From the NCBI GenBank assembly GCA_902773055.1, contig CACYCZ010000071.1:1-43338 (forward strand): a stretch of 43,338 bases of DNA, read 5' to 3'. Below are positions 8,983 through 43,338 of this stretch, one piece after another (position 1 is the stretch's first letter; each line of letters starts with the position of its first letter). The DNA comes from an uncultured Bacteroidales bacterium (GTDB lineage Bacteria > Bacteroidota > Bacteroidia > Bacteroidales > Bacteroidaceae). The position numbers and the translations under genes were made by a program. The notes below the pieces were generated by a model that worked only from the letters and a program-made list of their open reading frames with translations, was not told the origin of the DNA and searched no databases.

Positions 8983-10632
8983 ATGGCAAATCCGGAATTC
9001 AAGTATGCGCCAATGTTTCAACTTGGCAAAGACACTACCGAGTACCGTCTTCTGACAAAAGAAGGAGTGAGTACCGGTGAGTTTGAAGGGAAGAAAATTC
9101 TCAAAGTCAGCAAGGAGGCACTTACCCTGCTGGCTCAACAGTGCTTTCACGATGTAGAGTTCATGCTGCGTCGCGAGCATAACCTGCAGGTAGCAAAAAT
9201 CCTAAGCGATCCTGAAGCAAGCGAGAATGACAAATATGTAGCTCTACAATTCCTGCGCAATGCAGAAACTGCAGTCAAAGGCATCCTGCCTTTCTGTCAG
9301 GATACAGGAACGGCCATCATCCACGGAGAGAAAGGCCAGCAGGTGTGGACAGGCTTTGAGGACGAAGAAGCCCTCAGCCGCGGTGTATTCAACACCTACA
9401 CACAAGACAACCTGCGCTATTCCCAGAATGCTCCTCTCAACATGTATGACGAGGTGAACACCAAGTGCAACCTACCGGCACAGATCGACATTGAGGCCGT
9501 AGAAGGTGCCGAATATCGCTTTGTTATGGTTGCCAAGGGAGGCGGCTCTGCCAACAAAACATATTTCTACCCTATGACCAAAGCTACCATTCAGAACGAA
9601 GGTACCCTGCTGCCATTCCTTGTTGAGGAGATGAAACATCTGGGTACAGCGGCATGCCCACCCTACCACATCGCTTTCGTCATCGGTGGCACAAGTGCTG
9701 AGAAAAACCTGCTGACCGTGAAACTGGCTTCCATCAAGTATTATGACAATCTGCCGACCACAGGCGACGAGACAGGCCGGGCTTTCCGTGACATTGACCT
9801 GGAAAACAAACTGCTCAAGGAAGCTCAGAAAATAGGTCTCGGTGCACAGTTCGGAGGCAAGTACCTTGCCCACGACATACGTGTCATCCGCCTGCCCCGT
9901 CACGGAGCCAGTTGTCCTATCGGAATGGGTGTAAGCTGTTCCGCTGACCGCAACATCAAGGCTAAAATCAATGAAGACGGTATCTGGATTGAGAAGATGG
10001 ATGACAACCCCTCTGAACTGATACCTGCTGAACTGCGTAATCCGGGAGAAGGTCCCAAAGGCATAGAAATAGATTTGGACAAAGGTATTGATGCCGTGCG
10101 TGCAGAATTGACAAAGTATCCTGTCAGCACACGCGTCAACCTGAAAGGCACCATCATCGTTGCCCGCGACATTGCCCACGCCAAACTCAAGGCACGCCTT
10201 GATGCCGGCGAGGAAATGCCAGCCTATTTCAAAGACCACCCTATCCTCTATGCTGGTCCGGCCAAGACACCAGAAGGCTATCCCTGTGGTTCCATGGGTC
10301 CCACTACAGCCAACCGCATGGATCCCTATGTTGACGAATTCCAATCGCATGGTGCCAGTCTGGTAATGATAGCCAAGGGCAACCGTACACAACAAGTTAC
10401 AGATGCCTGCAAGAAACACGGCGGATTCTATCTCGGCACCATCGGTGGTGTTGCCGCTGTATTATCACAGAGTTCCATCAAGAGCATTGAGTGCGTGGAA
10501 TATCCGGAGTTAGGAATGGAAGCCATATGGAAAATCGTTGTCGAAGATTTCCCCGCTTTCATTTTGGTAGATGACAAGGGCAACGACTTCTTCAAACAAC
10601 TGAAGCCTTTCTGCCCGCAATGTTCAAAATAA
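8983..10632 (+). CDS. Class I fumarate hydratase (iron-sulfur, FumA/FumB type)
   Basis: The enzyme interconverts fumarate and (S)-malate in the reductive branch of the TCA cycle, which Bacteroidales use to make succinate and propionate. The 549-residue length matches single-chain class I fumarases. The N-terminal alpha-type part includes [11 protein letters not shown] (about residues 104-114), the cysteine of which is one expected [4Fe-4S] ligand. Other conserved segments are [34 protein letters not shown] and [20 protein letters not shown]. The beta-type C-terminal part has [20 protein letters not shown] and GGVAAVL. The [4Fe-4S] cluster makes it oxygen-sensitive. It is the last gene of the run starting at rsmI, with an inverted repeat following it. 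Confidence 0.95.
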
Positions 10633-10653
10633 CAGGCAACAGACACATCCGGT

Positions 10654-10691
10654 ATATGCCCTGAGAGTCTTTCTTGACTTTTAGGGCATAT
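10654..10691. terminator. Inverted repeat after fumarase gene, possible weak terminator
   Basis: ATATGCCCT at 10654-10662 is exactly complementary to AGGGCATAT at 10683-10691, with a 20-nt T-rich loop. No U-tract follows on the plus strand, so it may be a weak terminator, an mRNA-stabilising hairpin or an operator for the next gene. Confidence 0.4.
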
Positions 10692-10748
10692 CCATTATCT
10701 AATTGTACTGATTCATTCATCCCGCATAAACCAGTTTCTCTCATCAGT

Positions 10749-11183
10749 ATGGAAATCATCAGAGCGACCCAATTAGCAGAACAGGCTGGAGCCTATTATG
10801 TCCGCATACAGGCCATGGCCCGCAAGCATCATATTCCTCTCTCCACAGAATTTGACAGTCACGACACCCCTGAGACCAAATATATCGTTGCTGTAGACGA
10901 CTATCTGCCTGTAGCCACATGCCGCCTATATGCCCTTGACTCTGACAGAATCATGTTAGGACGCATCGTCGTCCTGCCAGAATACCGTCATCAGGGTCTT
11001 GGAACACTTGTAGTCCAAGAAGCAGAGAAATGGGCACTGGAATTGGGATTCCATACAGCTGTCCTGGAAAGCCGAGACAATAAGACAGGGTTTTATGAAG
11101 CACTGGGATATACTGCCGACCACTCAAAAAAAATTATAGGAGAGACATTCATCTGCTACCGCATGGAGAAAAAACTCGGATGA
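10749..11183 (+). CDS. GNAT family N-acetyltransferase
   Basis: The 144-residue protein is a Gcn5-related acetyltransferase using acetyl-CoA. The cofactor-binding motif A is visible as LGRIVVLPEYRHQGLGTLVV (about residues 73-92), containing the R/Q-x-x-G-x-G/A pattern as RHQGLG. A C-terminal motif, LESRDNKTGFYEALGYT, is typical of ElaA or YjcF-like members. The substrate is unknown. I chose ATG at 10749 because the protein then starts MEIIRATQLAEQ, in line with family members. Upstream in-frame residues are low-complexity and lie over the inverted repeat. The gene stands alone between the fumarase and OPT transporter genes. Confidence 0.85.
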   Translation: MEIIRATQLAEQAGAYYVRIQAMARKHHIPLSTEFDSHDTPETKYIVAVDDYLPVATCRLYALDSDRIMLGRIVVLPEYRHQGLGTLVVQEAEKWALELGFHTAVLESRDNKTGFYEALGYTADHSKKIIGETFICYRMEKKLG

Positions 11184-11279
11184 GAATAATTGTTTCCCGC
11201 CGCCCGTTTTCGGCTGTTCCCAATAGGGATTTCCAGCATTGGCCATATCGGGAGGAGATAGTGATTCAAGGATTATTCG

Positions 11280-11287
11280 TATATTTG
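11280..11287 (+). promoter_or_regulatory. Putative -7 box (TATATTTG) for the OPT transporter gene
   Basis: TATATTTG fits TAnnTTTG and lies 27 nt upstream of the ATG at 11315. I see no clear -33 element. Confidence 0.5.
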
Positions 11288-11314
11288 CATCACAATTAAC
11301 AATCTTACAAGACT

Positions 11315-13276
11315 ATGGACGACAAGAAGAAAGTAGCTCTGCCCGACAATGCATTTCGGGAACTACAAGAGGGCGAAGAGTACCAACCCGTAATGAGCCC
11401 TCAGGTTAAATACAAGGAGGTAACCACATGGTCGCTGGTATTGGGCTTAGTTCTGGCTGTGATATTCTCTGCCGCATGCGCCTATCTGGGACTCAAAGTG
11501 GGTCAGGTATTCGAGGCCGCTATTCCAATAACTATCATTGCCGTGGGATTGGCGGGAGCAACCCATCGTAAAAATGCCTTGGGTGAAAACGTCATCATCC
11601 AGAGTATTGGAGCCTGTTCAGGCATGGTGGTCGCAGGAGCCATCTTTACCCTGCCGGCGCTATATATCCTGCAAGCCAAATATCCTGACATTACAGTAGA
11701 CTTTATGAAAGTATTTCTGGCATCATTGCTCGGCGGTATATTGGGCATATTGTTTCTCATACCCTTCCGCAAATTCTTTGTCAAGGATATGCATGGCAAA
11801 TATCCCTTCCCAGAGGCAACAGCCAGCACACAGGTACTGATTTCCGGCGAAGGCGACAGTAATGGAGCCAAGCCCCTGCTGTTTGCCGGTATTGTGGGAG
11901 GACTATATGATTTCATCATTGCAGCATTTGGAACATGGACCGATACCTTTACTACCAGCGCATATGCATGGGGTGAAACAATTGCTGAAAAACTAAAACT
12001 GGTATTCAAGGTCAATACAGGTGCCGCCGTATTAGGCATGGGGTACATCGTTGGCCTGAAATACGCTACAATCATCTGCGCAGGCAGCGCACTGGTTTGG
12101 TGGATTATCGTACCAGGCATTGCACTCTTGTTTCCCGAGATACAAGTTGCCGAGGGCATAACTGCCGCCAATGCCTCTCCTGAGACAATTTTCAAATATG
12201 CCAAGAGCATCGGTATCGGTGGTATTGCCATGGCAGGATTGCTGGGCATCTGGAAAAGCCGCAAGATTATTGCAGGAGCAGCAAAACTGACAGGGAAAGC
12301 CTTCCGAAACGAAGAAAACCTGTCAGAAGCAGTACGCACAGAACGCGACCTCTCCATGAAAATTATTGCTGCAGGAGCACTGATTACACTACTGGTCATT
12401 TTTGCTTTCTTCTATTTTGGTGTCATGAACGGAAATCTCCTATTCGCCACTGTAGCCATATTACTGGTTGCCTTTATCGCTTTCCTGTTTACGACCGTAT
12501 CTGCCAACGCCATTGCCATAGTAGGCAGCAACCCCGTATCAGGTATGACTCTGATGACCTTGATATTAGCATCAGTCATTATGGTCGCTGTCGGCCTGAA
12601 AGGCTCAGCCGGTATGGTAGCCGCTCTGTTAATGGGAGGCGTAGTATGCACAGCCCTGTCAACTGTAGGCAGTTTTGTCACTGACCTGAAAATAGGCTAT
12701 TGGCTGGGAGCCACACCACGCAAACAAGAAACATATAAATTCCTCGGAGTATTAGTCAGTGCCGCTACTGTCGGCGGAGTCATCATGCTGCTCAATAGCA
12801 CATACGGATTTACCTCCGGTCAACTTGCCGCACCTCAAGCTAATGCCATGGCAGCCGTTATTGAACCTTTGATGAGCGGTCAAGGTGCCCCTTGGACATT
12901 ATATGGCATCGGTGCCGCAATAGCCATACTGCTTGACTTGTGTGGAATCTCCGCTCTGGCATTTGCACTAGGTATGTTTATTCCATTAGACCTCAATCTG
13001 CCACTCCTTGTCGGCGGACTGATAAACTGGTATGTCACCACCCGTTCCCATGATAACACCATCAATAACCAACGCGGCGAACTGGGTACACTGCTTGCAT
13101 CGGGCTTCATTGCAGGAGGTGCATTAATGGGAGTTGTCAGTGCCATTCTTCGATTCGTCGGTTTCAATCCCACTGACGAGGTTTGGATAACCAGCCCCTG
13201 GAGCACGACAATAGCTCTCATTACCTATTTCGCTTTGATTCTATATTTTGTCAAAGCCTGCATGAAAAAATCATAA
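11315..13276 (+). CDS. OPT family oligopeptide transporter
   Basis: The 653-residue polytopic membrane protein belongs to the oligopeptide transporter superfamily, which moves small peptides or metal chelates with proton symport. A short cytoplasmic N-terminus contains the family-like EYQPVMSPQ..KYKEVTTWSL region (about residues 20-42). About fourteen to sixteen hydrophobic segments follow. Recognisable conserved stretches include ACAYLGLKVGQVFEAAIPI (about 52-70), the KYPFPEATASTQVL motif near 165-178 and the C-terminal ALAFALGMFIPLDLNLPLLVGG region. The length matches bacterial OPT proteins of the TIGR00733 type. It is monocistronic, with its own promoter box. The substrate cannot be predicted. 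Confidence 0.92.
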   Translation: MDDKKKVALPDNAFRELQEGEEYQPVMSPQVKYKEVTTWSLVLGLVLAVIFSAACAYLGLKVGQVFEAAIPITIIAVGLAGATHRKNALGENVIIQSIGACSGMVVAGAIFTLPALYILQAKYPDITVDFMKVFLASLLGGILGILFLIPFRKFFVKDMHGKYPFPEATASTQVLISGEGDSNGAKPLLFAGIVGGLYDFIIAAFGTWTDTFTTSAYAWGETIAEKLKLVFKVNTGAAVLGMGYIVGLKYATIICAGSALVWWIIVPGIALLFPEIQVAEGITAANASPETIFKYAKSIGIGGIAMAGLLGIWKSRKIIAGAAKLTGKAFRNEENLSEAVRTERDLSMKIIAAGALITLLVIFAFFYFGVMNGNLLFATVAILLVAFIAFLFTTVSANAIAIVGSNPVSGMTLMTLILASVIMVAVGLKGSAGMVAALLMGGVVCTALSTVGSFVTDLKIGYWLGATPRKQETYKFLGVLVSAATVGGVIMLLNSTYGFTSGQLAAPQANAMAAVIEPLMSGQGAPWTLYGIGAAIAILLDLCGISALAFALGMFIPLDLNLPLLVGGLINWYVTTRSHDNTINNQRGELGTLLASGFIAGGALMGVVSAILRFVGFNPTDEVWITSPWSTTIALITYFALILYFVKACMKKS

Positions 13277-36679: not shown

Positions 36680-38335
36680 CTACATCTTGCGCGGCGTGCG
36701 CGGTGCACTTTCCACAACGCGTTCACGGCTATTGCCGGGATATATCTTCATGAATGCCACACCGTGGGGAGCCACATCGGTATCGAAACGCTCTTCGGCA
36801 TTGAGTTCAGCCACGTCCTTCTGACGCCAGACGTCGCGCACTTTCTGATGCCCGCGAAGTCCCAGTGACCGGGGAATGAAACCTATCTTCATGGGCTTGT
36901 CCGAGATATTGAACATGGCCACGGCCATGGCTCCGTCCTCCAAGTGCTTCACATAGGTGGCATAGTCGCCCGACTGATAGTGGCGGTAAGCGTGTATGCC
37001 CAGGGGGTCCTGGTGAATGTCATTAACTTCAAAGTTGCACAGCAGACTGATGGTAAAGGGGTCCAGTCGGGACATGTCGCATCCTATCAGCAGGGGTGAT
37101 GCCAGCATGGCCCAAAGGGTCATATGGGTATATTGCTCATCGGGAGTCAGTCCTGTGTAGCGCATATTGCGGCCCCACCCCACAATACCCAGAACGAGCA
37201 TGTCGGCATCGGCCCAGTGACCTGGTCCGGAAAAGGCTGTCCATTTGTCCTGTCCCTTAAAACCGATATCGTAAACACTCTTCCAGTTGTCGCGGATGTC
37301 GCCCGTGGTCCTGTAGCAGTTGGTGTACTGCGCCCATACAGGGGCATCGCCATAGGGTGCCGAGTTGGACAGACTGTATACGATATCTCTCTTCTGTGAC
37401 CTGAGGGCCTCATACATCTCACGGGTGTCATAGTAGTCGTTAGGGTTCCAGTCGTATTTCAGGTAGTCCACATCCCAGTCGTTCCACTGTTTCACGTCGC
37501 TGCTGACAAAGGAGTAGAGCCCGTGGTAGTAGTGTTCCTTGCGCACTTGGTTGCCGAGGGTATCCTCGGGAGTGACATACTTGTAATTCTCGTTGTGCTT
37601 ACCCTCTTTTATCCAGTCGTAGGTGCCGTCGGCATTGTCCGACTCACATCCTATATGGCCGGCATAGGTTCCCACCCACGGACCGCAGTAGATACCCAGT
37701 TTGAGCCCCATGCCGTGGATGGCGTCAGCCATTTTCTTCATGTCGGGAAATTTCCTGTTTGCCTGTATGGCGTTATACTTGCCGCCACGCTTGCCCTGCC
37801 AGCCGTCGTCTATGTTGATATACGACCATCCGTAGTTTATCAGGCCCTTGTCCACCATGGCACGGGCCGATGCAATCACTTTGTCCTGGCTGACGGCATT
37901 GCCCCAGCAGTTCCAGCTGTTCCACCCCATGGGCGGAGTCAGTGCTATCCTGTCGCCCACCTCCAGGCGCAGTGTCCGCTCGTCCTTGCCTTTGGCGTTT
38001 GAGGCACGGAGGATTACCTTGTATGTCCCTGCCTTGGCCACGGTGCCACGGATAAAACCAGTCCGCCCGTCCAGCGTCAGCCCTGCCGGCAGTCCTTCGG
38101 CCGTAAACTTCATCGGCCGTTGCCCTGTGGCAGCAATATTGTACATCACGGGAGAGCCGGGCCTGACGCCAAACACCTTGGCACTGTTGATGCGCGGTGT
38201 CTCGGGAGCCGGCGGTGTCAGGATATAGGCCGAGTAGTCGGGAATCACGATATCCTTTGTCGACTGCGCCGATGCAGTCATGACAAGTGCCATACATGCC
38301 AACGCGGCAGCATGACCTAAAAACCAAGTCTTCAT
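36680..38335 (-). CDS. Secreted GH27 glycoside hydrolase (alpha-galactosidase type)
   Basis: The 551-residue enzyme has a signal peptide (MKTWFLGHAAALACMALVMT, cleavage after about residue 23). A putative Ig-like domain (He_PIG type, about residues 42-126) and the GH27 catalytic barrel (about 130-430) follow. LTPPMGWNSWNCWG (132-145) and INIDDGWQG are family hallmarks. The nucleophile is Asp295 in YLKYDWN, and the likely acid/base is Asp349 in TTGDIRDNW, equivalent to Asp231 of human alpha-galactosidase A. GPGHWADADMLVLG (371-384) completes the site. A beta-sandwich ends the protein. GH27 also contains beta-L-arabinopyranosidases and isomaltodextranases, so the substrate is not proven. No SusC/SusD pair is nearby, so this is not an obvious utilisation locus. 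Confidence 0.92.
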   Translation of the reverse strand: MKTWFLGHAAALACMALVMTASAQSTKDIVIPDYSAYILTPPAPETPRINSAKVFGVRPGSPVMYNIAATGQRPMKFTAEGLPAGLTLDGRTGFIRGTVAKAGTYKVILRASNAKGKDERTLRLEVGDRIALTPPMGWNSWNCWGNAVSQDKVIASARAMVDKGLINYGWSYINIDDGWQGKRGGKYNAIQANRKFPDMKKMADAIHGMGLKLGIYCGPWVGTYAGHIGCESDNADGTYDWIKEGKHNENYKYVTPEDTLGNQVRKEHYYHGLYSFVSSDVKQWNDWDVDYLKYDWNPNDYYDTREMYEALRSQKRDIVYSLSNSAPYGDAPVWAQYTNCYRTTGDIRDNWKSVYDIGFKGQDKWTAFSGPGHWADADMLVLGIVGWGRNMRYTGLTPDEQYTHMTLWAMLASPLLIGCDMSRLDPFTISLLCNFEVNDIHQDPLGIHAYRHYQSGDYATYVKHLEDGAMAVAMFNISDKPMKIGFIPRSLGLRGHQKVRDVWRQKDVAELNAEERFDTDVAPHGVAFMKIYPGNSRERVVESAPRTPRKM

Positions 38336-38381: not shown

Positions 38382-38389
38382 CAAATTTA
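38382..38389 (-). promoter_or_regulatory. Putative -7 box (TAAATTTG) for the GH27 gene
   Basis: The plus strand CAAATTTA is TAAATTTG on the minus strand. The start codon at 38335 is about 45 nt downstream. It implies separate transcription from the peptide-tailoring operon that ends at 38448. Confidence 0.45.
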
Positions 38390-38447: not shown

Positions 38448-40103
38448 TCATGACCGGGCATCCAGGAAGATTTTTCCGTCACATATTTCTGCCACTTCCG
38501 GGCGGTGGGTGATGAGGAGGATCGTCTTTTGGGGGCACGCTTTGAAGATTCTCCCAAACAGTTCCCTCTCCGTTGCCTCGTCAAGGGCCGAGCTTATCTC
38601 GTCGAGCAGGAGTATGCTGCCTGTCAGCAGCAATCCACGTGCTATGGCAATGCGCTGAGCCTGTCCTTCGCTCAGTCCGCAGCCCCTCTCTCCCACTATG
38701 GTATCCATGCCGTCGGCCAGGTCAAAGACGAAATCCGCCACGGCCGTATGCAGGGCCCTGCGAAGCATTTCGTCGGTTGCGTCAGGGCGGGCCACAAGGA
38801 GGTTATACCTTATCGTTCCGCTCATCAGCGAATTGCCCTGGGGGATATAGGTCATATAATATCTCGTCCCGGCATTCACCTCCAGTGTTTTTCCTTCTTC
38901 GTTGTATATTGTGATACTCCCCGTCTGGGGTTCGGCCAGTCCCAGCAACAGCCTGAACAGGGTGGTCTTCCCCACGCCCGTATGGCCCATGACAGCCGTG
39001 TGCGTCCCCGGCCTGAAGTCATGCGAGAAACCTTTCATGACCGTCGCGCCCTCATCGCCGTAGCCGAATGTCACGTCACTGACCCTGATGCCCCACGGTG
39101 CCGTCGCTGCCTCTTCCTTTGCCGGCCGGGACTGCGTATCTGCCGTCTCCGCCGGCAGTTGTTCCAGTTCCGCCAGCCTGTCCACGCCGGCCATGGTGTG
39201 TATCAGTTGCGGAACACCGTTGAGCAGGTTGAGCATAGGGTGTTGCACCTGCCCTGCCAGTTGCAGGAAGGCAATCATCGTTCCCATCGTGATCTCTCCG
39301 CTCCGCATCATCAGGCCGCCCCATACGAACACCAGCAGGTAGCCCAGCCCGAATCCCGATGAAATGACCGTGCGCGCCATGACGGTAAAACGGGTGCGGC
39401 GGTCCACTTTGGCCTCCAGTCCCCGCTGCATGTCCTTTACCTGTGCCATGATCCATCCGGTGCTCCCCATGGCCCTTATCACGTCATTGTGCTCCAGTCC
39501 CTCCTGTACGGTCATCTGTATGAGGCTTTCCTGACTCCTGATGTCGTGGGTCAGGCTGCGCAGTTTCCTCGCCGTCAGCTTGCCCAGTATCAGGAACGGC
39601 GGTGTCAGCAGGAGCAGCGTCCATGCCAGTCTGCTGTCCAAGGCATACAGCATGAGGAAAGCGCCTCCCAGCTTGCAGCAGGTCACCGCCATGTCGGGCA
39701 GCAGCGCCGCCACGGTGTCGCTCACCAGGTCGATGTCCTTCTCCAGTCTTGAGACGAGGTCGCCCGAGTGCATCATCTTGCCGCCGTAGAGTTTTCTGTG
39801 CATCAGCAGGCCGAAGAGCCGCAGTTTCATGCCGTTGACGAGCCGTGTGCGCGCCCTTATGGTCATGGCGTAGCCGGTCAGGCGCAACACGATTCCGCCC
39901 AGTATGATGCCCGCCAGGAGCACCACCCCGGCCACCACGTCACGGTCGGTACCCGTGCGGATGGTCACGTCGATGAAACGCTTGCACACTGCCACCTGAG
40001 CCAGTCCCAGCCCCGTTTGCAGGATGCCCATGCCTACCCTTCCGGCCATGTTCAGGCGTATGCCCTGCACATTGCGGCCTACCCATGCCACGTATTTTTT
40101 CAT
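38448..40103 (-). CDS. ABC exporter, fused membrane and ATPase domains
   Basis: The 551-residue half-transporter carries a six-helix membrane domain (about residues 20-300) and an ATPase domain with Walker A GHTGVGKTT (373-381), Q-loop Gln422, signature GLSEGQAQR (476-484), Walker B ILLLDE (497-502) and switch His533. It has no N-terminal C39 peptidase domain, unlike double-glycine peptide exporters, so any leader cleavage needs a separate enzyme. This matches the lasso-peptide D-type exporters in layout. I use ATG 40103 (MKKYVAW), which overlaps the PqqD gene stop by ATGA. It is the last gene of the five-gene operon and is GC-rich (35 of 60 bases at 39781-39840). Confidence 0.92.
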   Translation of the reverse strand: MKKYVAWVGRNVQGIRLNMAGRVGMGILQTGLGLAQVAVCKRFIDVTIRTGTDRDVVAGVVLLAGIILGGIVLRLTGYAMTIRARTRLVNGMKLRLFGLLMHRKLYGGKMMHSGDLVSRLEKDIDLVSDTVAALLPDMAVTCCKLGGAFLMLYALDSRLAWTLLLLTPPFLILGKLTARKLRSLTHDIRSQESLIQMTVQEGLEHNDVIRAMGSTGWIMAQVKDMQRGLEAKVDRRTRFTVMARTVISSGFGLGYLLVFVWGGLMMRSGEITMGTMIAFLQLAGQVQHPMLNLLNGVPQLIHTMAGVDRLAELEQLPAETADTQSRPAKEEAATAPWGIRVSDVTFGYGDEGATVMKGFSHDFRPGTHTAVMGHTGVGKTTLFRLLLGLAEPQTGSITIYNEEGKTLEVNAGTRYYMTYIPQGNSLMSGTIRYNLLVARPDATDEMLRRALHTAVADFVFDLADGMDTIVGERGCGLSEGQAQRIAIARGLLLTGSILLLDEISSALDEATERELFGRIFKACPQKTILLITHRPEVAEICDGKIFLDARS

Positions 40104-40366
40104 ACCATCTCCAGCCGAGACCATTCTGCGAGGATATCCTTGATGTCCTTTCTGGCCGTCGCCTCGTCTACGTCATAGTCTTCCATGAGGGCGCCGAGCA
40201 GTTGCTCTTCGGTAAACTCGCCCAATTCCTCAGCCTTATGCCATAGGAACGCCGCCGTGTCGTTCAGACACAGCAGCCTGTTGAAATTGATGCATCCCAG
40301 TCCCTCGGCCATGATGACCTTCTCACCGCATATCTCACGCAGTACAAATCCTTCTTTCAGTTTCAT
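40100..40366 (-). CDS. PqqD-like RiPP recognition element (RRE) protein
   Basis: The 88-residue protein has PqqD-family features: an N-terminal beta hairpin (LKEGFVLREICGEKVIMAEG, residues 3-22), the family's LNDTAAFLWHKAEELG segment (35-50, a variant of the usual LN-x-T-A-x-x-I/L-W motif), and two further helices (EEQLLGALMEDYDVDEATA and DIKDILAEWSRLEMV). PqqD-like domains bind leader peptides of ribosomally made modified peptides and present them to the tailoring enzymes. It is free-standing, as in lasso systems (B1) and in PQQ synthesis. It overlaps both neighbours by ATGA. Its likely client is the peptide encoded at 43085-43189. Confidence 0.9.
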   Translation of the reverse strand: MKLKEGFVLREICGEKVIMAEGLGCINFNRLLCLNDTAAFLWHKAEELGEFTEEQLLGALMEDYDVDEATARKDIKDILAEWSRLEMV

Positions 40367-40821
40367 GTTGCATTAGTTTTTATACATCGTCTGAATACAT
40401 ACAGCAGGTATCTCCTTATCGGTTTAGCCCATCTCCACATCGTGGCTGCCCATCTCCTCGGCAGGGAGTACAGTGAGTGCTGCCTGCCGCTGTCGCCCTT
40501 TATCACATGGGTTGCCTTGGCTTTGATGTCACCCATCCTGCACGCTTCCGTGGCAGCCAGGTTGCCGTCGCCCATCAGGGTCACCCTGTCGCCGTCTATC
40601 CTTACGATGCGGTGGACCACATAATGGCCGGGCTCGCACCATGCCAGCACGATGTCGCCCTCCCTGACGTGTCCGGGTTTTTCAAGCACCAGGCTGTCGC
40701 GGTCGCCCACGATAAAAGGCATCATGCTCCTGCCTCTCACCTTCATGGTGACTTTCATGCCTTCGTCAACCAGCCGTATAACATCCTGTATGATGTCATT
40801 GTCACTTTTATTCTCTGTCAT
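40363..40821 (-). CDS. S24/S26 (SipW-like) peptidase, probably soluble
   Basis: The 152-residue protein has the signal-peptidase-like active-site motif GRSMMPFI with nucleophile Ser32. This is followed by the GDIVLAW strand (56-62) and, in place of the usual lysine base, VVHRI with His70. A late MGDGN (83-87) corresponds to the GDxN box. The Ser/His pairing is the SipW or ER type, not the bacterial Ser/Lys type. There is no N-terminal membrane anchor. The C-terminal helix (RRWAATMWRWAKPIRRYLLY) is amphipathic and may associate with the membrane. I infer a leader or propeptide peptidase for the cluster. The start is ATG 40821 (MTENKSD), overlapping the kinase stop. Confidence 0.82.
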   Translation of the reverse strand: MTENKSDNDIIQDVIRLVDEGMKVTMKVRGRSMMPFIVGDRDSLVLEKPGHVREGDIVLAWCEPGHYVVHRIVRIDGDRVTLMGDGNLAATEACRMGDIKAKATHVIKGDSGRQHSLYSLPRRWAATMWRWAKPIRRYLLYVFRRCIKTNAT

Positions 40822-41678
40822 CGGCCGTCGGGAGTTTTTATCGTGTTGTAACATATCCTTGCCGCCTCTTCATCGGGCAGACAGTCCAGGTGATAAACCC
40901 TGACGGCCGCCGCTGCACGGTTAAGGGTGTCATGCAGTCCGTCGGCCAGTTTCTTCTCCCATCGCTTGCCCGATGTCGCCGCGCTCATTATGCTGTAGCC
41001 GCAGACGGGTCTCACGGGTGCGATGCTGTTGCGGGGTGCCTGAGCTATTTCCACCACAGCCCCGACGGGATAATGTTCATTGATATAGCACGGTGTCTTT
41101 CCGCTCCACGGCGACCCGTATACGGTGGCGGTGCCGTCAGCACCAATCCTCACCACGGGGTTGTCGTCGTTCAGCAGACGAGTGCCGGGAATGCACCTGA
41201 GCCACAGGCTCGAATGGGTGCTCTTTCCCGTTCCGCTGGGTGCGACAAAGAGATAGCCCCTTGCATCCTTCACCACCACCGATGCGTGCATCAGCAGGGT
41301 GCCCTTGCCGGCCGTAGCCAGGGCATACATCACCATCAGGGCATTGTCGAGTGTGGCCGTCCGGCGCCCGCTGTCAGTAGTGTTCAGGATCAGCCTTGCC
41401 TCCTGATAGTCAGCATCGCATATCATCTCCCCCGTCATCTGTCCCTGGAAACCGAAACGGAAAACAGGTTTCCGGCCGTCATGGCCCACCTCGATGGTAT
41501 TTCCCTCATTCTGCTGAGTCAGTTCCAGCTCAAAGCCCGCTTCCCTGAGGCGGCCTTCCTCCACGGTCAGCCTGAACACGTCGCCGTTTTCCTCTGTCAG
41601 GAAAGGTTCGTATCCGCTGCGGATAAAACCCTCTGGCGCATCCACGGTAAAGCCGTGGCCGGCTACCATGAATCTCAT
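40818..41678 (-). CDS. HprK-like P-loop kinase (peptide-tailoring type)
   Basis: The 286-residue protein resembles the C-terminal kinase fold of HPr kinase/phosphorylase and lasso-peptide tailoring kinases. His131 starts the typical LMHASVVV strand. Walker A is APSGTGKST (146-154), an acidic pair follows at Asp171-Asp172 (LLNDDNPVVRI), and the glycine-rich loop YGSPWSGKTPC is at about 188-197. The N-terminal half (1-105) has no HPr-kinase regulatory signature and looks like a separate beta-rich domain. Lasso-cluster kinases phosphorylate a Ser of the precursor, and I infer a similar role here. Carbon-catabolite regulation is the less likely alternative, because no HPr gene is nearby. The start is ATG 41678, overlapping the previous stop. 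Confidence 0.82.
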   Translation of the reverse strand: MRFMVAGHGFTVDAPEGFIRSGYEPFLTEENGDVFRLTVEEGRLREAGFELELTQQNEGNTIEVGHDGRKPVFRFGFQGQMTGEMICDADYQEARLILNTTDSGRRTATLDNALMVMYALATAGKGTLLMHASVVVKDARGYLFVAPSGTGKSTHSSLWLRCIPGTRLLNDDNPVVRIGADGTATVYGSPWSGKTPCYINEHYPVGAVVEIAQAPRNSIAPVRPVCGYSIMSAATSGKRWEKKLADGLHDTLNRAAAAVRVYHLDCLPDEEAARICYNTIKTPDGR

Positions 41679-42790
41679 GTCCTCCCTCCTTTCCGCCTTT
41701 CGGCGTCGGCGAGCGACCAGCTCCGCGCCTTTATTCTCTGCGGGATTGTCTCTATAATCGCTTTCCAGAATTTCATTTCCAGCCACACTGCCTCTGCCGG
41801 GTTGAAGGTAAACATTGCCATACGTCTTTTCCTGCCATGGAACAGGCGTTGCCACGGCCCTGCCTCCCTGCTGCCGTCATAATGTCCGAAATTACCTTCT
41901 GCAAGGACAGCCTCCAGCATCTGGCGGCCACGTTGTTCATCAGGCGGGCATATCATCTTGGCACGTTCCAGCCCGAACAGGCTGCCCATGACCCACATCA
42001 CTGCTCCGGCGCATTTCCGCAGTCCCATCCGCCTGAGTTCATCCTCCGTAACATCACCGTTGCCACGCTTCAGCAGCATGAAATAATCCGTCAGATGCCT
42101 CAGTCCCAATCCGCTGGCGACGAAATGGCGCTGTATGTGGGCCATCTGCATTATCAGGGCAAAGCGCAGCGTGGGTGCCACAAACTCCCGGGCGGTCATC
42201 TTTGATTTCAGTATTTCCTTCTCCAGCACCTTTTGCAGATGTCGGTTGGTCAGGGGATTCCTGTTGCCCGACGAAGGGCGGAAATGCACCTCCACGTGAG
42301 CTCCGCAGAGCGGCTTGGTCAGATGGGCATGATGATAGGCAAGATGATATTGCAGCCCCATGCTGTCAAGCAACTGTGTCACATTGTCCTTGCCGCCTTC
42401 CACCCAGATGTCGACATCGCCGGGCTGCCGGCTCAGGGGCTCAGGATAGAGCATGGCGTTGGCCTGCCCTTTGAGGATAGCCGTGCGCCGGCCTTTCCGG
42501 CCAAACAGCAGGGTCAGTTCCCTGCAGGCATTCGTGAGCACCTTGTTCATCTCAGCTATACGCTCAGCCTCGACTGCCCATGTCAGCAACAAGGTCTTGG
42601 GCGGCCTCAGCTGGTCGGGCAAGGTCTTCACTCCCTGGTACACGACACCCGTCACTGTCTGTTTCCGGGCTGTGAGGTACACGGCATTCCATTCCTCCTC
42701 CGACATGACGGGCACAAGGGCATCGTCCACCTTCAGGGCATAGCGCAACAGGGTGAAGAAATTATGGTATCTCTTATCCATTGACATCAT
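41675..42790 (-). CDS. NTP_transf_5-type nucleotidyltransferase
   Basis: The 371-residue protein has the core of the uncharacterised nucleotidyltransferase family (PF14907). LKGQANAMLYPEP (106-118) leads into RQPGDVDIWVEGG (121-133), with metal ligands Asp125 and Asp127. AHVEVHFRPS continues the fold, and LGLRHLTDYFMLLK follows in the helical C-terminal part. Some relatives in lasso-peptide clusters add nucleotidyl- or sugar-derived groups to the peptide, so a tailoring role is inferred. The protein starts MMSMDKRYH; ATG at 42790, 42787 or 42781 are all possible. It is the first gene of the operon and ends in an ATGA overlap with the kinase gene. Confidence 0.85.
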   Translation of the reverse strand: MMSMDKRYHNFFTLLRYALKVDDALVPVMSEEEWNAVYLTARKQTVTGVVYQGVKTLPDQLRPPKTLLLTWAVEAERIAEMNKVLTNACRELTLLFGRKGRRTAILKGQANAMLYPEPLSRQPGDVDIWVEGGKDNVTQLLDSMGLQYHLAYHHAHLTKPLCGAHVEVHFRPSSGNRNPLTNRHLQKVLEKEILKSKMTAREFVAPTLRFALIMQMAHIQRHFVASGLGLRHLTDYFMLLKRGNGDVTEDELRRMGLRKCAGAVMWVMGSLFGLERAKMICPPDEQRGRQMLEAVLAEGNFGHYDGSREAGPWQRLFHGRKRRMAMFTFNPAEAVWLEMKFWKAIIETIPQRIKARSWSLADAERRKGGRT

Positions 42791-42866: not shown

Positions 42867-42874
42867 CAAAGTTA
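42867..42874 (-). promoter_or_regulatory. Putative -7 box (TAACTTTG) of the peptide-tailoring operon
   Basis: The plus strand CAAAGTTA is TAACTTTG on the minus strand. The leader to ATG 42790 would be about 70 nt. No clear -33 element is present. The structured inverted repeat lies directly upstream. Confidence 0.5.
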
Positions 42875-42978: not shown

Positions 42979-42997
42979 TTCAGTTTCGCATACATAG

Positions 42998-43037
42998 AAA
43001 AAGAGCCGGAACGCATCCGTGCAATCCGGCCCTTTTT
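42998..43037. terminator. Bidirectional terminator below the peptide gene
   Basis: AAAAAGAGCCGGA (42998-43010) pairs with TCCGGCCCTTTTT (43025-43037) with one A-C mismatch. An inner GCA/TGC adds to the loop. U-tracts are available on both strands. It lies 47 nt after the stop of the 34-codon peptide gene and isolates it from the downstream operon. Confidence 0.82.
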
Positions 43038-43084
43038 CATACTGTCCTTTTAAGCCATCTGGTTATAGCTATTTATCTTTGGCA

Positions 43085-43189
43085 TCAGTTTGTCTCGTCA
43101 CCGTATTCTTCGGAGCTTTCATCAAGCAACGGTGCTTCGTAGTTTATAGGAACTACTTCCATTTCAGGCTTCTGATAAGTCTTTTTCAT
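43085..43189 (-). CDS. Candidate RiPP precursor peptide (34 residues)
   Basis: I do not recognise a named family. ATG 43189 to TGA 43085 encodes a 34-residue peptide. Its N-terminus is MKKTYQKPEMEVVP, which contains Y-x-x-P-x-M (Tyr5, Pro8, Met10). A second copy, YEAPLL (Tyr17, Pro20, Leu22), matches the lasso-leader motif YxxPxL exactly. The remaining tail DESSEEYGDETN is strongly acidic, with two Ser, one Thr and one Tyr that could be modified. YxxPxL is the element bound by PqqD-like RRE proteins in lasso systems, and one is encoded 2.7 kb downstream. Short MKKxYxxP-type genes are, as I recall, common in Bacteroidales, and their role is unknown. The gene starts 38 nt after the preceding secreted-protein stop and is followed by a terminator. 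Confidence 0.68.
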   Translation of the reverse strand: MKKTYQKPEMEVVPINYEAPLLDESSEEYGDETN

Positions 43190-43227: not shown

Positions 43228-43338
43228 TCATTTCACGAATACCTTCTTCCCGTTACGGATATAGATACCCTTTGTTGCAGGCTTGGCCTGGAGTTTCTTA
43301 CCGTCAATGGTGTACCACTCGCTGCCTTCCTCAATGAC
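43228..43338 (-). CDS. C-terminal end of a secreted protein (partial)
   Basis: Only the last 36 codons are in the window; the 5' part lies beyond 43338. The reading frame is open to the edge and ends at TGA 43230-43228. The visible sequence includes EWYTIDGKKL and then KGIYIRNGKKVFVK at the very C-terminus. Tails of the form W-Y-x-x-D/N-G-x-K/R-L ... K-G-I/V-Y-I-x-x-G-K-K-V are common on Prevotella and other Bacteroidales secreted or cell-surface proteins. They resemble type IX secretion-type or adhesin-type C-terminal domains. The main domain is unknown. It is directly upstream of the short peptide gene and probably shares its transcript. Confidence 0.75.
   Translation of the reverse strand, partial: VIEEGSEWYTIDGKKLQAKPATKGIYIRNGKKVFVK

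Follow-up and report, generated by a model that had tools for sequence, protein, structure and literature searches.

Among the described peptide systems, the closest to the locus analyzed here are the lasso peptide clusters that encode a kinase and a nucleotidyltransferase (pseudomycoidin and bsf; in the case of paeninodin, the kinase). According to the available parts of the respective reports, the kinase BsfK contains the H-GxxGxGKS-DD residue set, is strongly accelerated by the protein that serves as recognition element (RRE) for ribosomally synthesized and post-translationally modified peptides (RiPPs), and modifies core Ser3 of BsfA, which equals Tyr+19 given the leader Tyr at position -17 (PMC10368454); PsmN, the nearest tested NTP_transf_5 relative, led to hexose on phosphoserine (PMC9266682). 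The locus in question lies in a stretch of 43,338 nucleotides (hereinafter the window) that is the entire contig C71 of an uncultured Bacteroidales bacterium (GCA_902773055.1; genome G000, 95% complete; G, C and L codes label genomes, contigs and loci in the comparison). As an earlier note on this DNA had proposed, five open reading frames (ORFs), all on the minus strand and overlapping head to tail (by 4, 37, 4 and 25 bp, from the coordinates), encode a nucleotidyltransferase-like protein, an HprK-like kinase, an S24/S26-type peptidase, a PqqD-type RRE and an ABC exporter (Table 1). A putative precursor peptide and the truncated end of a surface protein, encoded upstream, appear to belong to the same unit. 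Gene order, motifs, predicted folds and co-occurrence, from which we infer the reactions, make it rather probable that the locus serves the maturation and export of a linear RiPP-type phosphopeptide, with candidate substrates that are paired with cargo of the type IX secretion system (T9SS) in Prevotella-type relatives.

The window locus shares with these lasso clusters the free-standing RRE, the HprK-like kinase (His, P-loop and DD), a gene annotated as nucleotidyltransferase, an ABC exporter and a YxxPx(hydrophobic) leader; like BsfA, the peptide contains Ser near Tyr+19. The differences are that PF13471, the B2 leader peptidase, has no match in G000, that no asparagine-synthetase-like cyclase C is found among the operon genes scanned (the genome was not searched for the cyclase), that a Ser/His S24/S26-type peptidase is present, and that the candidate substrates in relatives are dispersed beside T9SS cargo. 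Because B2, a defining feature, has no match in the genome, membership in the lasso clusters was rejected, in agreement with the earlier view of a free RRE with a lasso-type kinase and exporter that is distinct from lasso systems; the RRE itself matches lasso B1 proteins both by profile (PF05402) and by fold (5v1u and 6jx3).

An HprK-related protein combined with a PqqD-like peptide chaperone is also characteristic of the HPr-rel-A (TIGR04352, TIGR04353) and SynChlorMet (ScmC, TIGR04249) systems, but the window matches are far under the curated cut-offs (28.3 versus 200, 16.2 versus 35 and 29.9 versus 125 bits, respectively), and membership in HPr-rel-A was rejected. In Prevotella intermedia, for which 80 T9SS cargo proteins are predicted, the short T9SS signals consist of 43-55 aa with a PT/GI site, a Tyr-Gly-basic motif B, motif D (GxY or GxN) and a basic motif E, as described in the available part of the report (PMC11969387). 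The surface proteins discussed below resemble these signals in motifs B, D and E, a T/GI-like site and tail length, but the accessible text sections of that report describe no partner peptide. A Bacteroidales RiPP survey mentions PqqD once in its available text, in the references (PMC10352776), and among the matches listed in the open-access literature, which includes few subscription journals or preprints, no title or abstract opening concerns a T9SS-linked RRE system.

The kinase-peptidase-RRE core

A kinase-profile search identified 414 relatives, of which the 80 loci best matching the window kinase were compared; these are the most window-like loci, so that gene frequencies among them do not extend to relatives at large. 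Among the named sources are Segatella baroniae B14 (locus L155, with the NTP_transf_5, kinase, peptidase and PqqD genes), Prevotella ruminicola KHT3 and P. aff. ruminicola Tc2-24, and many of the loci come from metagenome-assembled genomes labelled from ruminants. The kinase, peptidase and PqqD genes are all present in 65 of the 80 loci, compared with 50 for the ABC gene and 14 for an NTP_transf_5 gene near the kinase. Another set of 61 genomes was searched for PqqD and PF13471. PqqD relatives were detected in 27 of these genomes, at 28 places, including a single match in G000; at 23 of the 27 places outside G000, the three genes occur together, the exceptions being L052, L053, L054 and L055. 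The core is the kinase-peptidase-RRE triad, and the exporter and the nucleotidyltransferase are optional; of the five genes that had been taken as a set, it is these three that hold together beyond chance, and a number of same-family loci contain the three alone.

The kinase is designated HprK-like because it combines weak NCBIfam matches (ScmC, 3.5e-7, and HprK-related A, 8.5e-7, both far under the cut-off) with conserved catalytic residues. Among 22 aligned members, H131, SGTGKST148-154, N170 and D172 are invariant and D171 is nearly so; the lasso-type motif set (H, GxxGxGKS, D-D) is present except for the first Gly in 4 of the 22. Of the families named in the earlier note, PF14907, PF05402, S24/S26 (PF00717) and ABC were all matched, including the PqqD match on which its reading was made to depend. 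No HprK family was matched in the Pfam scan, and the HprK_C label was dropped.

In the peptidase, Ser43 and His81 are invariant in 20 of 20 sequences. A Foldseek search started with its AlphaFold model (predicted local distance difference test, pLDDT, 91.0) identifies LexA and lambda repressor as the best matches (1.7e-4 downwards, TM about 0.4), followed by UmuD and signal peptidases. With the sequence profile, a weak match to SEC11 is obtained (0.017), and the NCBIfam scan matches the Ni-superoxide dismutase maturation protease family TIGR02754 at 2.2e-5. The window protein shares with the latter two the character of a signal-peptidase-like Ser enzyme but differs in that the TIGR02754 match is under the cut-off, the catalytic partner is His, and the gene belongs to an RRE-kinase operon. 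The RRE model (pLDDT 90.4) is best matched by leader-bound TbiB1 (5v1u/5v1v, TM 0.73-0.75) and by lasso B1 6jx3. The Pfam matches of the ABC exporter include no peptidase domain. The nucleotidylation postulated earlier is unsupported as written; in the case of PsmN, the group on the phosphoserine was a hexose.

Several related loci have a different composition. In L034, L035, L036, L039, L042, L043, L047 and L048, a secreted-looking protein of 134-204 aa (IYVFGVSxSFxDS-type) precedes the kinase; such proteins head kinase-peptidase-PqqD loci that lack the peptide, and the one member scanned showed no credible Pfam or NCBIfam family. In L052 (G030, positions 9179-12205), the PqqD, NTP_transf_5 and kinase genes adjoin a gene for a sugar transferase of exopolysaccharide type, and a YxxP peptide is encoded at a distance of about 3.6 kb; G030 has no T9SS sortase match. 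The gene set is also found on contigs labelled Fibrobacter (L176, L179, L180 and L187), which could reflect misbinning or transfer.

Peptides and their surface-protein partners

The window peptide (34 aa) has the leader pattern Y5xxP8xM10 and two adjacent serines, Ser25 and Ser26. Its similarity to the paeninodin precursors is weak (E 0.094; 12.5 versus 27 bits for NF033524). A search at the DNA level with the strict pattern MKKxYxxP, with the reversed pattern as the control, revealed copies scattered through the genomes of relatives, with a maximum of 16 per genome, compared with 0-4 for the control. From 60 of 80 planned regions and others, 91 distinct peptide ORFs of 25-115 aa were collected, some of them clearly chance matches. 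The residue two positions past Pro is M, L or I in 48 of 67 peptides (YxxP itself is fixed by the search pattern). Of the 59 peptides linked to a sorting tail (see below), 56 have a Ser between Tyr+18 and Tyr+21, most often at +19 (31 of 59), whereas seven other 4-residue windows contain Ser in 10-24 of 57-59 peptides, although these sequences are related and not independent. The window peptide has Ser at Tyr+20 and +21. By analogy with BsfA, this spacing points to a candidate phosphorylation site.

The ORF truncated at the contig end, which stops 38 bp before the peptide gene, encodes a tail in which, as judged by eye, the B, D and E motifs typical of T9SS short sorting tails can be recognized. 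A T/GI-like cleavage site would fall beyond the contig end, and HMM scans of the 36-aa fragment yielded no match to curated sorting-domain families. A like tail precedes a near-identical peptide in G017. The genome of the window encodes the T9SS sortase PorU (G000:C70, 1018.9 bits, cut-off 420). In 68 of the 91 peptides, a same-strand ORF ends within 150 bp upstream, and 59 of these ORFs carry a short sorting tail directly before the peptide, compared with 1 of 342 control genes. This count is partly circular, as 39 of the 59 tails had served to train the profile; among the 29 ORFs that had not, 20 were matched. The gap between cargo and peptide has a median of 21 bp, with three 4-bp overlaps among the 59 pairs. 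Among the kinase-chosen loci, all 7 strict peptides follow a tail protein, at distances of no more than 158 bp. Conversely, a YxxP peptide comes after 10 of 18 tail proteins, an 11th having been set aside as implausible.

Of 56 tails of relatives, 25 contain GxY, 16 contain GxN and 33 contain T[GAS]I; counted from the T[GAS]I site, the length is 40-51 residues in the 11 tails for which it was determined. A stricter test, with terminal motif D and T[GAS]I together, retains 11 of 56 tails and 1 of 342 controls. TIGR04183 is the top NCBIfam family, yet it matches 7 of 56 tails only (best 3.4e-4), and the Pfam sorting-domain equivalent matches 2 of 56. Nine partner proteins examined for domains have no Pfam domain common to all, and four have none at all. 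The earlier note, which had singled out the peptide and which is borne out in that a substrate role appears likely, missed its place as the second gene of a recurring T9SS-cargo/peptide pair. Several of the peptide and tail genes are located at contig ends (e.g., G031:C28, G031:C39, G028:C39 and position 43338 of the window), an indication that the cargo genes contain or adjoin repeated sequence.

The pairs are also linked to the enzyme genes. Locus L154 repeats the window order (tail protein, peptide, NTP_transf_5, kinase, peptidase, PqqD, ABC), and L164 contains two tail-peptide pairs followed by the kinase, peptidase, PqqD and ABC genes. In the 1.5 kb that precede the gene run, the kinase-chosen loci contain 3 strict peptides on the right strand against 0.088 expected (P about 1e-4, with the expectation derived from the mean count and assuming 2.8 Mb genomes).

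Co-occurrence was typed in 249 genomes of the family, with the peptidase scored by profile match alone, irrespective of an adjoining kinase. The mean pattern count is 4.32 (reversed control 0.28) in the 173 genomes with both T9SS and peptidase, 2.24 (1.00) in the 17 with T9SS only, 1.53 (0.84) in the 32 with peptidase only and 1.48 (1.19) in the 27 with neither. The peptides exceed the background mainly where T9SS and peptidase coexist, with exceptions. The notion that the gene set is always accompanied by dispersed peptides was rejected, given the near-background values of the peptidase-only genomes. When genomes are compared genus by genus, a modest association is left (stratified permutation p 0.023; rank test for genus g44 p 0.0015). 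The kinase is absent from all 15 genomes searched among the 44 peptidase-negative ones.

Proposed pathway and rival explanations

These predictions can be assembled into a pathway. The PqqD-type RRE would bind the peptide leader via Y5xxP8x(M/L/I)10, and the HprK-like kinase, assisted by the RRE, would phosphorylate Ser approximately 19 residues past the Tyr (Ser25/26 in the window). Where present, the NTP_transf_5 protein might add a group (hexose or nucleotide) to the phosphate. The Ser/His peptidase would cut off the leader near the LLxxS stretch, and the ABC protein would export the product. In the T9SS-bearing Prevotella-type relatives, one gene set would serve several substrates of the same genome in trans, most of them with genes that directly follow that of a T9SS short-tail surface protein. 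If so, peptide phosphorylation is decoupled from lasso folding, a signal-peptidase-like enzyme replaces the lasso leader peptidase, and a peptide-modifying pathway is tied to T9SS, the cargo of which is abundant in Prevotella. More tentatively, and with doubt prevailing, this could be a ribosomal peptide system of a new class, in which each dispersed precursor has its own T9SS surface protein as partner, is phosphorylated and trimmed in trans by the single RRE-kinase-peptidase set, and then acts on or is joined to the cargo at the cell surface (e.g., as a ligand or lock, or as an acceptor in the sortase reaction). Direct, cheap tests are feasible owing to the leader motif and the almost constant position of the Ser.

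Several observations weigh against a phosphopeptide system of this kind. Replacing either Tyr or Leu of YxxPxL singly by Ala leaves BsfA phosphorylation unaffected (PMC10368454), and the known kinases of C-terminal Ser, such as PadeK, act at other positions (PMC9266682, PMC10368454), as far as the available text of these reports goes. The window kinase and 3 of 21 others have Ala in place of the first Gly of GxxGxGKS. A number of kinase-peptidase-RRE loci have no exporter or peptide alongside, and in the window a terminator-like hairpin stands between the peptide gene and the enzyme genes. The window's own genus shows no clear difference in peptide counts, and the strongest exception to the co-occurrence is G006, with 16 pattern matches but no peptidase or kinase match; because G006 also lacks two genes that border the set in a relative, an assembly gap is likely. 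In G017, the tail, peptide and NTP_transf_5 genes share one contig (L236, G017:C145; the near-identical peptide is followed by alpha-galactosidase and then NTP_transf_5, with no kinase, peptidase, PqqD or ABC match), yet there is no kinase in the genome. With these two exceptions, the notion that an assembly with the peptides must also contain the gene set was rejected. Finally, G055, from another family, has the peptide directly before the kinase, peptidase, PqqD, NTP_transf_5 and ABC genes but no T9SS sortase match; because of this operon, the T9SS link looks like a trait of Prevotella-type lineages and not of every such operon.

The strongest of the rival explanations, which draws on the peptide-free loci, is that the three-gene core modifies another target, for instance the secreted-looking protein next to the kinase or a polysaccharide, as the sugar transferase next to PqqD in L052 might indicate, the peptides being unrelated small genes of T9SS cargo. 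The combination of the YxxPx(hydrophobic) leader with a lasso-type RRE fold, the near-fixed Ser offset, the cis linkage, the co-occurrence and the single PqqD match in the genome speak against it, and we consider it unlikely. The short cargo-peptide gaps and the overlaps would also be expected if the peptides were unprocessed and, produced from one message together with the cargo, inhibited or chaperoned it, and no export signal was recognized in them by eye; however, the partners are diverse while the leader pattern is kept, and the peptide is associated in cis with the kinase/RRE operon, which makes this explanation distinctly improbable. Least credible is a remnant or split lasso cluster, with B2 and C located elsewhere or recently lost. 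It draws on the fact that the RRE, kinase, NTP_transf_5 protein and exporter all occur in phosphorylated lasso clusters, on the lasso-type fold of the RRE and on the weak paeninodin match, and the cyclase was sought among the operon genes, not genome-wide. The distribution already tells against it, as PF13471 is found in 5 of 61 genomes (4 above the cut-off) and not in that of the window, compared with peptidase matches in 205 of 249 family genomes, and a Ser/His peptidase is conserved beside the RRE instead.

Coordinates and neighboring elements

Table 1. Features of the locus in window coordinates
Feature	Position	Strand	Evidence or remark
Surface protein, last 36 codons, 5' part lost at contig end	43228..43338	-	tail EWYTIDGKKLQAKPATKGIYIRNGKKVFVK
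Putative precursor peptide	43085..43189	-	MKKTYQKPEMEVVPINYEAPLLDESSEEYGDETN
Terminator-like hairpin behind peptide gene, 14-bp lower stem ending in a T-run	42997..43038	-	fold
Promoter-like site, 77 bp before NTP_transf_5 gene (first operon gene)	42867..42874	-	TAACTTTG, fits TAnnTTTG
NTP_transf_5 nucleotidyltransferase-like protein	41675..42790	-	PF14907, E 2.3e-40; optional tailoring gene
HprK-like peptide kinase, 286 aa	40818..41678	-	weak NCBIfam matches and catalytic residues
S24/S26-type peptidase, likely leader peptidase	40363..40854	-	PF00717, 4e-6; invariant Ser43, His81
Free-standing PqqD-type RRE	40100..40366	-	PF05402, 2.7e-12, 47.3 bits, cut-off 23.4
ABC exporter, fused membrane and ATPase domains	38448..40124	-	PF00005, 1e-21; PF00664, 2.4e-19

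As the window spans the complete contig, the upstream end of the locus is truncated at position 43338. The hairpin behind the peptide gene has a z of -2.8, equalled by 2 of 200 shuffles, and was not listed by a simple terminator scan. Because this hairpin is followed by a TAnnTTTG site, which we take to be the Bacteroidota -7 box consensus, before the NTP_transf_5 gene, the cargo-peptide and enzyme genes in the window may form two transcription units. Promoter-like sites of this type are over-represented across the window (54 versus 28 expected). The alpha-galactosidase gene at 36680-38335 was set aside as a member of the unit and has its own TAnnTTTG site at 38382-38389; nonetheless, an alpha-galactosidase gene stands between the peptide and NTP_transf_5 genes in G017.

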